From: Ideonella paludis
GTDB taxonomy: Bacteria > Pseudomonadota > Gammaproteobacteria > Burkholderiales > Burkholderiaceae_C
Assembly (NCBI RefSeq): GCF_018069865.1
Contig: NZ_JAGQDG010000005.1
Coordinates: 186,001 to 250,000 of the forward strand
DNA length: 64,000 nucleotides
Direction of reading: 5' to 3'
Part shown: positions 56,412-59,236 of the stretch, in pieces
Layout: the number at the start of each line of letters is the position of its first letter
Numbering within the stretch: the stretch's first letter is position 1
Notes under the pieces: model-generated
What the model saw: the letters and a program-made list of their open reading frames with translations, nothing else
The model's database searches: none
Told to the model about the DNA's origin: nothing
Translations under genes and position numbers: made by a program

Positions 56412-56612
56412 ATGAAAGCATCTGAACTGCGAGCCAAGGACGTGGCCGCGCTGGAAAAGGAAGTCACCGACCTCCTGAAGGCGCACTTCGGCCTGCGCAT
56501 GCAAAAGGGTACGCAGCAGCTCGGCAACACCGCGCTGTTGGGTAACACCCGTCGCGACATCGCTCGCGCCAAGACCATCTTGGCCGAGAAGAAGAGGGAG
56601 GCTGCGAAATGA
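56412..56612 (+). CDS. rpmC: 50S ribosomal protein L29
   Basis: The 66-residue helical-hairpin protein has [16 protein letters not shown] and [15 protein letters not shown]. It sits at the tunnel exit. ATGA overlap with rpsQ. Confidence 0.96.
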
Positions 56613-56884
56613 CGCAAGCTCAAGAAACCACGACCAACACTCGGACGCTGGTCGGCCGCGTGGTCAGCGACAAGCGCTCCAAGACGGTCACCGTCCTGGT
56701 CGAGCGTCGCGTCAAGCATGAGCTCTACGGCAAGATCGTGGCCCGCTCGCGCAAGTACCATGCACACGACGAAAAAGGCGAATACCACCTGGGTGACACC
56801 GTGGAAATCGCCGAGTCGCGCCCCATCTCCAAGACCAAGAACTGGGTCGTGACCCGTTTGGTCGAGAAGGCTCGGTTGATCTAA
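56609..56884 (+). CDS. rpsQ: 30S ribosomal protein S17
   Basis: The 91-residue protein has [20 protein letters not shown] and the signature [18 protein letters not shown]. Its last codons encode [13 protein letters not shown] second, diverged copy of this C-terminal stretch occurs 1.6 kb downstream, and everything between is AT-rich and foreign-looking. The 3' end seen here may therefore have been supplied by the insertion. Normally rplN, or a short spacer, would follow. Confidence 0.96.
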
Positions 56885-56897
56885 ATAGATGAGCATT

Positions 56898-56957
56898 ACA
56901 GACGCAGCTTTTGTGCGGCTGTAAATTAGGCAGCTAAACGCAATGTTTGGCTGCCTA
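56898..56957 (+). other. two hairpins at the left edge of the islet
   Basis: ACAGACGC/GCGGCTGT (56898-56922, one mismatch) is followed by a longer stem, TAGGCAGCTAAAC-gcaat-GTTTGGCTGCCTA (56927-56957), 13 bp with one G-U pair. No T-run follows, so termination is doubtful. They could be recombination-site symmetry, a processing site or a weak terminator. Confidence 0.5.
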
Positions 56958-57053
56958 GTTTGCTATGGTCTTGGGAAGGTATTGCACGCCTTGATTTTTT
57001 GTTCTATGCTTGGCGCGCTAAGAGGCCTTTTAAGCGAATTGAAAAGGTAGAAG

Positions 57054-57275
57054 ATGAAGATCTTGGACCATGTCTTGTTCGTTGAGGGTAATGACAATTT
57101 TGTATTTCGAGACGTCGCAGATAAGCTTCGCTTAGGTGTTGTGACGAATGGAAAAGGAAATAATTCCCCGGCGTTTCAGGATGACTTGGCAATTAAGTCA
57201 GCGAAAGAGCGTGAAGCTGAAATAGTGGCATCGGCTAAGAGATTGTTTGCTGACATGCTTGCTAACGATCGATAG
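57054..57275 (+). CDS. islet ORF 1, unknown small protein
   Basis: A 73-residue hydrophilic protein, with DHVLFVEGNDNFVFRDVADK at the N terminus and a charged helical C-terminal half (KSAKEREAEIVASAKRLF). I recognise no family and see no signal or membrane segment. The upstream AGGTAGAAG gives a modest ribosome-binding site. The AT-rich codon use differs sharply from the flanking ribosomal genes. The next gene starts 10 bases after its stop. A fragment of a larger gene is possible. Confidence 0.5.
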   Translation: MKILDHVLFVEGNDNFVFRDVADKLRLGVVTNGKGNNSPAFQDDLAIKSAKEREAEIVASAKRLFADMLANDR

Positions 57276-57285
57276 CGGAGTTGCT

Positions 57286-57783
57286 GTGACGAGGAAGATA
57301 AATAAAAAATATTTGGCGAGAATTAGTCCAGAGAGGGTTTCAAGTCGAATGAGCCTTCTTAAATGCGCTGGGGAAGTTCTTGAAAAGACTTTACCTGAGG
57401 GGTTGACGTTGTCTACCACAAGCGTATTGCTGCATGCGGTGGTAGTCTCGCATTTTTTGGATGTTGAACGATTCAAAGAATTTCATTGCGAGCCGAAAGA
57501 TGCAGGAGAGGAAGCCAGAATTAGTTACCCAAAGATTGCTGCCTTCATGATTAAATGGGTGGCAAAGATCAGGCCCTTTCGAGTTGAACTAGATCCGAAT
57601 TCTGGTGAAAAAATAACGGCCGTAGAATGGGATTTTTATTCCGTACAAATAAATGCGTTAATTGCGCCTATTTTGTATGCGATGATCACTAATCAACCCC
57701 CATTTGAAGATTACCGAATAATTCATGAGCTTCAGTTCGGCAACCTTGGAACCGATGCATTGGTGCTCTTGCTGGAGAGGTAG
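57286..57783 (+). CDS. islet ORF 2, unknown soluble protein
   Basis: A 165-residue protein from GTG 57286, five bases after GGAG; an upstream TTG would overlap ORF 1 and has no ribosome-binding site. The N terminus is basic (MTRKINKKYLARISPERV). The rest is mixed helical with WVAKIRPFRVELDP and a hydrophobic stretch (INALIAPILYAMI) near the C terminus, which is too interrupted for a clear membrane helix. I recognise no domain. Position and packing suggest it works with ORF 1 and ORF 3. Confidence 0.6.
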   Translation: MTRKINKKYLARISPERVSSRMSLLKCAGEVLEKTLPEGLTLSTTSVLLHAVVVSHFLDVERFKEFHCEPKDAGEEARISYPKIAAFMIKWVAKIRPFRVELDPNSGEKITAVEWDFYSVQINALIAPILYAMITNQPPFEDYRIIHELQFGNLGTDALVLLLER

Positions 57784-57791
57784 GCTCGCTC

Positions 57792-58181
57792 GTGAAGATT
57801 GACGATTCTGACTATGAGTTCGCATTGGCCCGAAAATTTGCTGAAAAATTAAATTCGGCGACTGATCGGACGGAAACAGAAAATAAGCAAGTCGCTGCGG
57901 TAGTGGCTCACGAAGCAATTCGAGAGGTCAAGAGTCGACTCACATGGCCATTGATTGCTGTTGGTGCTATATTCATAGCCAGCAACATTTCGGTCCTGAT
58001 CTTACTGGGGGTTGCCATGACGTATGATCAAAATGCAATGTCTTTCGCGCTGGAAAGAAAAATGGCATATAACCGATTAATAGAGCCACAAGTCATACTG
58101 TCCCTTGTTGCTGGTGTCACTGTTCAATCGGTTGTGGCATTTACGGTGATTGTCAAGGGATATTATCAGGCAACCAAATAG
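57792..58181 (+). CDS. islet ORF 3, unknown protein with two membrane segments
   Basis: A 129-residue protein from GTG 57792, eight bases after the ORF 2 stop, with AGG seven bases upstream. The N-terminal ~50 residues are charged and helical (FAEKLNSATDRTETENKQVA), perhaps a short coiled coil. Two hydrophobic helices follow: PLIAVGAIFIASNISVLILL (about 54-73) and VILSLVAGVTVQSVVAFTVI (about 102-121), joined by a ~28-residue loop. Such a soluble-plus-membrane pairing (ORF 2 and 3) is seen in small defence, toxin or immunity modules, but no family match supports that here. A palindrome GTCTCA-tc-TGAGAC lies at 58196-58209, just after it. Confidence 0.6.
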   Translation: MKIDDSDYEFALARKFAEKLNSATDRTETENKQVAAVVAHEAIREVKSRLTWPLIAVGAIFIASNISVLILLGVAMTYDQNAMSFALERKMAYNRLIEPQVILSLVAGVTVQSVVAFTVIVKGYYQATK

Positions 58182-58517
58182 TAAAAATTGATATTGTCTC
58201 ATCTGAGACTGTTTGGTTATTTAATGTCAATAGTACTAGATTTCGACCCAATGAAAAGACACCATTCGCTGGTGCTCATCGTCCTTGGTGTGGGTCTGCA
58301 AAATTCACTGAATTGTGACCGCAATGCATTTTCGAGCGATGTTTTTGTTCATTGGAATGACTCGATTGCCATATATGGAGAAGAGGCAACGTGGTTGGGG
58401 TTCTGGGGTGCATAACGTATCGTTTCGCAAGCAGAGCTTAGTCGGTCATTTTTGATGACGTTGCTGCGGTCTCTGCCTTGCGCTCGATGCAGAGAGTCTG
58501 TTCCGGCTGGGGGTAGG
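58182..58517 (+). other. AT-rich sequence without a convincing gene
   Basis: This stretch contains the short palindrome 58196-58209, which could be a weak terminator with TGTTTGGTTATTT after it, and a short frame (58224-58415, 63 codons) that lacks a ribosome-binding site. GC content rises from about 58420 on. From 58494 the codons read ESVP, as the ES-x-P of rpsQ does, so the rpsQ remnant may begin here with a small deletion; this is only suggestive. Confidence 0.4.
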
Positions 58518-58556
58518 GTTTTGACCCGCTTGATTGAGAAGGCCAACTTGGTCTAA
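58518..58556 (+). pseudogene. displaced second copy of the rpsQ 3' end
   Basis: These 39 bases read VLTRLIEKANLV plus TAA, matching [12 protein letters not shown] plus TAA at the end of rpsQ: 8 of 12 residues identical and most others conservative (Val/Leu, Val/Ile, Ile/Val). At DNA level TGACCCG and GAGAAGGC are shared blocks. The frame has no start and no upstream S17 body. It is best read as the original end of rpsQ pushed away by the insertion. Confidence 0.7.
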
Positions 58557-58682: not shown

Positions 58683-58706
58683 AGCCCGCCCTTCGGCGGG
58701 CTTTTT
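58683..58706 (+). terminator. rho-independent terminator before the peroxiredoxin gene
   Basis: AGCCCGCC-cttc-GGCGGGCT (58683-58702) is followed by TTTT. It is the first clear terminator after rpsQ, so S10-operon transcripts should run through the islet up to here. Confidence 0.85.
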
Positions 58707-58726: not shown

Positions 58727-59236
58727 ATGTTGAATGTTGGCGACAAGCTCCCCGCAGGGGCACTGCAAGAATTCATTGAAGTGGAGGGCGGTGGTTGCAG
58801 CCTGGGCCCCAACAGCTTTGATATCGAAGCCTCGACGCGTGGTAAGACCATCGCGATCTTCGCCTTGCCTGGCGCCTTCACCCCGACGTGCTCCGCACAA
58901 CATGTGCCGGGCTATGTGGCCCAGGCCGACGCCTTGCGCGCGGCGGGCGTCGATGAGATCTGGTGTCTGTCCGTGAATGACGCCTTTGTCATGGGCGCCT
59001 GGGGGCGCGAGCAAAAAACGGCCGGCAAAGTCCGCATGATGGCGGACGGCTCAGCGGACTTCACGCGCGCCACCGGCTTGACCCTGGATCTGACGGCGCG
59101 TGGCATGGGTGTGCGCTCGCAGCGCTACTCCATGTTGGTCGTCGACGGCGTGGTCAAGACCCTCAATATCGAAGCGCCCGGCAAGTTCGAAGTCAGCGAC
59201 GCCGCCACCATGCTGGCACAAGCCCAGGCCCGCTGA
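58727..59236 (+). CDS. peroxiredoxin (Prx5-type)
   Basis: The 169-residue thiol peroxidase reduces peroxides. The active-site block is FALPGAFTPTCSAQHVPGY with the peroxidatic Cys in PTC. LSVNDAFVMGAWG and RSQRYSMLVVDGVVKTLN are typical of the Prx5 (AhpE/PMP20) group. AGGAG sits nine bases before ATG 58727. It lies between the S10 and spc operons, after a terminator and before the rplN promoter, and so is a separate unit. From memory, a redoxin gene at this spot is not rare in Comamonadaceae; the islet is the extra part. Confidence 0.9.
   Translation: MLNVGDKLPAGALQEFIEVEGGGCSLGPNSFDIEASTRGKTIAIFALPGAFTPTCSAQHVPGYVAQADALRAAGVDEIWCLSVNDAFVMGAWGREQKTAGKVRMMADGSADFTRATGLTLDLTARGMGVRSQRYSMLVVDGVVKTLNIEAPGKFEVSDAATMLAQAQAR

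Follow-up and report, generated by a model that had tools for sequence, protein, structure and literature searches.

How a block of AT-rich DNA came to lie at the end of the S10 ribosomal protein operon of Ideonella paludis, with ribosomal protein S17 left whole, is the question raised by this locus. Here the block (the islet) was analyzed within the window, the whole 64-kb stretch of DNA examined, and compared with the corresponding loci of related genomes. The positions of the features discussed are collected in Table 1.

Table 1. Features of the rpsQ islet and its flanks in the window.
Feature	Position	Strand	Basis
rpsQ (S17, 91 aa), putative hybrid of native body and incoming 3' end	56609..56884	+	Pfam PF00366, E 8.7e-30
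Proximal copy of the rpsQ 3' end, attL-like	56844..56884	+	direct repeat D1
Core blocks, proximal copy	TGACCCG 56850-56856; GAGAAGGC 56864-56871		pattern search
Islet body, low GC	56885..58515	+	GC 0.44; missing from 29 relatives' loci
Hairpin right after rpsQ, two 17-nt arms, 88% complementary	56923..56961	+	inverted repeat I1
ORF1, 73 aa	57054..57275	+	codon-position bias reached by 5/2000 simulations; no family
ORF2, 165 aa, soluble by hydropathy	57286..57783	+	codon-position bias reached by 5/2000 simulations
ORF3, 129 aa, two hydrophobic stretches	57792..58181	+	codon-position bias reached by 0/2000 simulations
Distal copy, putative displaced native rpsQ 3' end, attR-like	58516..58556	+	31/41 identical to proximal copy
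Core blocks, distal copy	58522-58528 and 58536-58543
Native S10 operon terminator, also in G004	58683..58702	+	terminator scan; alignment to L003
Redoxin gene	58727-59236		Pfam PF08534

Composition and coding content of the islet

The AT-rich block of about 1.7 kb next to rpsQ that an earlier note had described was borne out, positions 56885-58556 (1,672 bp) having a GC of 0.444 compared with 0.625 for the whole window. Across the 64 kb, 1,672-bp segments clear of the islet showed a minimum GC of 0.566 (mean 0.630, sd 0.030). A GC content like that of the genome, which would speak against foreign origin, is therefore not what the scan returned; the difference is sharp.

The three tightly packed genes of the earlier note were likewise recovered as ORF1-ORF3, which lie on one strand, spaced 10 nt (ORF1-ORF2) and 8 nt (ORF2-ORF3) apart, and show codon-position bias. 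Coding potential was assessed as base-by-codon-position bias against 2000 Markov simulations; open-frame length is weak coding evidence alone, an open frame of 185 codons being reached in 59/2000 simulations. The GTG start of ORF2 was chosen by the analyst, the listed ORF starting at TTG 57247. ORF3 contains hydrophobic stretches at residues ~50-79 and ~99-123 by hydropathy. A further frame, ORF4 (58188-58415), was rejected as a gene, its codon-position bias being reached by 1189/2000 simulations. ORF1-ORF3 are read as a three-gene operon.

Absence of the islet from relatives and duplication of the rpsQ 3' end

In a DNA search with rpsQ, 46 of 59 other genomes were matched, and the loci of 29 of these 46 were examined. 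The islet was missing from all 29, including those of all 15 other genus members examined. In the nearest relative (G004, locus L003) the site is empty, with rpsQ, 175 bp, the redoxin gene and rplN following one another uninterrupted. Alignment of the window with G004 fell into two pieces, a left one of 97% identity (567/586) that stops with the end of rpsQ and a right one of 87% identity (1223/1399) running from the displaced rpsQ tail described below through the redoxin gene and rplN. This was further seen in a DNA search of the 16 genomes of the genus, the query spanning rpsQ, islet and terminator, where a full match was obtained in the own genome only; the other genomes matched rpsQ, and G004 additionally matched from the displaced tail onward. 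In G001 the terminator region gave a single match of 37 bases (E 6.7e-4), distant from the rpsQ of that genome. The comparison with close relatives proposed in the earlier note has thus been run, and it returned an empty site and absence throughout the genus members examined rather than a block conserved across the family.

Closer examination of the islet borders revealed that the last 41 bp of rpsQ are repeated 1,672 bp downstream with 31/41 identical positions, the next best match of the rpsQ tail in the window being 24/41 on the + strand and 25/41 on the - strand. The two copies have in common two exact core blocks, TGACCCG (7 bp) and GAGAAGGC (8 bp), and the crossover probably lay inside one of these two. 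With the rpsQ end of G004 as stand-in for the host's own tail before insertion, the distal copy, which would read TRLIEKANLV followed by a stop, shared 34/36 positions with it, the best match among the 29 relatives. The proximal copy, which is the one in use by S17, shared 29/36 with G004 and was nearest to locus L005 (31/36). When rpsQ was compared with that of G004 in 46-bp blocks, the first five blocks were identical at 44-45/46 positions and the last at 39/46. Since the distal tail is nearest to G004 and the divergence within rpsQ clusters in its final 46 bp, the islet most likely supplied the working rpsQ end, leaving the native end as a relic. S17 is kept whole at 91 aa, with its frame intact, by the proximal tail. 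Because the block is bounded by the duplicated rpsQ 3' end, its junction is placed inside rpsQ, at about 56850-56871, and not directly after the gene as first described.

The empty sites in relatives, the low GC and the displaced native rpsQ tail together strongly support the earlier reading of the islet as a genuine foreign insertion. At the level of sequence comparison, the insertion, the relatives' empty site, the replacement of the tail and the displaced fragment are all demonstrable.

Operon context and transcription signals

At 23 of the 29 relatives' loci rpsQ is separated from rplN by a redoxin gene that starts 78-175 bp past the rpsQ stop. Redoxin is missing at five loci (L007, L008, L009, L013 and L019), where rplN is found 237-326 bp past the rpsQ stop. 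At locus L025 (G031) unrelated genes follow rpsQ, which we take to be GNAT-, cytochrome b561- and TlpA-like; the tail is not repeated there and the operon is split, neither redoxin nor rplN occurring in the 6.9 kb examined (L066, G031:C67:4500-12500), so that S10 and spc lie apart. With the redoxin gene intervening at 23/29 loci and unrelated genes following in G031, rpsQ appears to be the last gene of the S10 operon in this family. Placing the block "inside" a conserved operon was thus an overstatement, the site being the end of the S10 operon ahead of its terminator.

The hairpin that follows rpsQ lies in a region (56870-56990) with an RNA fold of z -3.58, the other strand as DNA giving z -3.41. 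It has no good U-tract and was not among the sites of the terminator scan; as judged from the predicted fold, it is possibly a terminator or insulator. On the + strand the scan returned terminator-like sites at 57434-57453 (within ORF2), 58196-58209 and 58683-58702, of which 58196-58209 is a weak site of five pairs right after ORF3; on both strands together seven sites were found versus 2.7 expected. No sigma-70-type match upstream of ORF1 was obtained in the promoter scan, and by eye only a poor TTGCAC-17-TATGCT was seen near 56981. The earlier statement that no clear terminator precedes 58683 is accordingly uncertain, given the strong fold after rpsQ, albeit with no good U-tract, and the weak 58196-58209 site. 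As the islet precedes the native terminator, read-through from rpsQ into it is possible, and the genes may instead have a promoter of their own.

Homology searches with the islet genes

Searches of Pfam and NCBIfam gave nothing above the curated cut-off for ORF1-ORF3. The match of ORF3 to the LlsX family (E 0.0017, 18.4 bits versus a cut-off of 29, over 28 residues) was rejected, as were other family-library matches, likewise below cut-off. No match to a known anti-phage defense module was found for ORF1-ORF4 with PADLOC at E up to 5, PHROGs gave one match only (E 0.94), and Rfam gave none. In the PDB, ORF2 had one match at E 1.7, and ORF1 and ORF3 had none. At the DNA level, blastn of the islet gave only short matches at E 0.5, one of 23 bp to one phage record and one of 37 bp to three plasmid-collection records, and tblastn of ORF2 and ORF3 against plasmids and phages gave no match.

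Relatives of the individual proteins were equally sparse. For ORF1, no credible relative was found in IMG/VR, plasmids, family libraries or the PDB. For ORF2, the only credible match in 299 family, 399 order and 369 class genomes, samples that overlap one another and each include the own genome, was the own genome; five weak matches in the 399 order genomes (E 0.0135-0.0985) overlap unrelated genes and were discarded. ORF3 gave 12 weak matches besides the own genome in 300 order genomes. The best of these (E 5.5e-4, 50% over 55 residues) falls within a 547-aa protein, presumably a permease, and was rejected; the other 11 were taken as chance, the best match being the only one inspected. Searches with ORF2 and ORF3 in genome contigs and IMG/VR returned pattern matches and no confirmed relative. 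It is doubtful, and no more than a guess, that the cargo forms a small accessory module whose active component would be ORF3, at the membrane, with ORF2 as its partner.

Search for an integrase and for other insertions at rpsQ

In agreement with the earlier note, no Pfam match to an integrase or transposase was found in the nine islet ORFs (four on the + strand and five on the - strand). The tyrosine-recombinase domain gave seven matches elsewhere in the own genome, outside the islet. Outside the window, at G000:C18:86256-86857 on the - strand, neighboring stretches match the two halves of this domain separately, which suggests a broken integrase gene. In the folded hairpins at both islet ends no likeness to attC was seen by eye.

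Whether rpsQ serves as an integration site elsewhere was assessed with a degenerate pattern for the rpsQ tail (up to one mismatch), which matched 290 of 399 family genomes, the own genome included; the 109 pattern-free genomes are uninformative, and more strongly changed second copies of the tail would escape the pattern. Match positions were compared in the 52 genomes (own aside) with at least two tail matches on one strand. On no contig were two matches found close together, and hence no second rpsQ islet was found in the family sample. The places themselves were inspected in four genomes, the remaining 48 and a third place in G392 (C10) being judged by distance or contig. Of the inspected pairs, that of G377 is an overlap of contig ends of about 91 bp, and that of G188 represents two separate rpsQ-redoxin loci (L058 and L059, on contigs C98 and C82). 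The two G188 loci differ from one another, possibly reflecting a mixed assembly. S17 was absent from a further G392 place (C2) and from the two inspected in G315.

In IMG/VR nothing was confirmed for two tail patterns or for S17, and a viral contig carrying the tail was not found. With neither a second islet nor such a viral contig, no integrase is known to use the rpsQ site, and one insertion event of this kind is known. In the literature searched, which was mostly open access and was screened by title and start of abstract, no rpsQ-targeting element was found, and no paper contained "rpsQ" together with "attB". One paper that mentions ribosomal protein S17 together with an integrase and a genomic island is, by its listing, a Streptococcus transcriptome study and was set aside.

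Origin of the islet

We consider it fairly probable, as the best explanation of the locus, that a small element recombined at the rpsQ end as a target-regenerating mini-island that is non-autonomous or decayed. An element of 1,672 bp, probably a circle, would have crossed over into the final codons of rpsQ via a short common core. The rpsQ 3' end that it brought along would have taken the place of the native one, keeping S17 whole, and the native tail would have ended up as a relic at the distal border of the islet. The crossover would be site-specific and of the tyrosine-recombinase type. Because no recombinase was found in the islet, the enzyme may have acted in trans, or the islet may be what is left of a larger island after loss of the integrase. 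The missing recombinase also counts against this explanation, as does the failure to find a second rpsQ islet in the family sample. Both observations are more easily met if a foreign fragment carrying a partial rpsQ was joined by homology-assisted or illegitimate recombination, with neither a site-specific recombinase nor a mobile element involved, and the common tail would offer about 40 bp of partial homology for such an event. The exact blocks of only 7 and 8 bp are, however, short for homologous recombination, and the gene was restored with the precision seen with islands; this route is rated as unlikely.

Of the earlier proposal that the islet is a cargo using ribosomal expression, the foreign insertion stands, and the use of the operon's expression is put in doubt. 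Maintenance of the islet at this site for the sake of S10 operon transcription would fit its same-strand position downstream of rpsQ and ahead of the native terminator, and also the want of a good sigma-70-type match upstream of ORF1. It is nevertheless rated as very unlikely, since a strong hairpin separates the ORFs from rpsQ, the one known copy gives no sign of selection for position and insertion at a gene 3' end needs no expression motive. That the islet is an artefact of assembly or contamination joining foreign sequence to rpsQ is scarcely credible: the islet is known from a single genome, as an assembly only, but it lies on a single contig of 421 kb in a genome with ratings of 100% for completeness and 0 for contamination, both flanks are collinear with G004 and the rpsQ frame is kept.

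Comparison with known elements

Site-specific islands are recognized by a regenerated target accompanied by a displaced fragment (PMC4383910), and 43.4% of catalogued islands lie in protein-coding sequences (PMC12424338). The rpsQ islet resembles the islands of the Islander/TIGER catalogue in its regenerated target end, the displaced native fragment at its far end, the empty site in relatives and its low-GC cargo. It differs from them in that no integrase was found, in its length of 1.67 kb and in its target, rpsQ, which was not encountered as such in the literature searched. The manner of insertion is thus of a known kind, and the integrase-free form below 2 kb is a variant that stands outside the catalogue because its rules require an integrase and set a lower limit of 2 kbp (PMC12424338). 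Working like an island with no integrase, the islet would be non-autonomous or a stump.

What the locus illustrates is that foreign DNA inserted where the S10 operon ends can leave S17 whole by way of a replacement gene end, with no integrase of its own. It is a decidedly unlikely, speculative extension that there exists a class of integrase-free mini-islands below 2 kb that spread via recombinases borrowed in trans, each with two or three orphan genes and a spare copy of an essential ribosomal gene's 3' end; insertion would then be harmless because the spare 3' end is carried along. If true, such a class would go unlisted by a catalogue demanding an integrase and at least 2 kbp. Should more cases be found, they would form a layer of mobile cargo omitted by design from integrase-based surveys and would also supply small genes of unknown kind; the islet, of which one case is known and whose cargo defies placement, remains a curiosity.

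Two further systems invite comparison. The pseudo-SCC of staphylococci are cassette-chromosome elements with no recombinase of their own, located at the 3' end of rlmH. Like them, the rpsQ islet is a target-restoring insertion at a gene 3' end that has no recombinase gene of its own; unlike the islet, for which no helper is known, pseudo-SCC belong to a known recombinase system. Within the S10-spc cluster itself, tusDCB and bfd-bfr have been inserted between operons, an origin in distant species being described as unlikely for these two events (PMC8046335). The islet is similar in consisting of extra genes at an operon border in the ribosomal cluster, and it is distinguished from them by its foreign composition and its duplicated target end.
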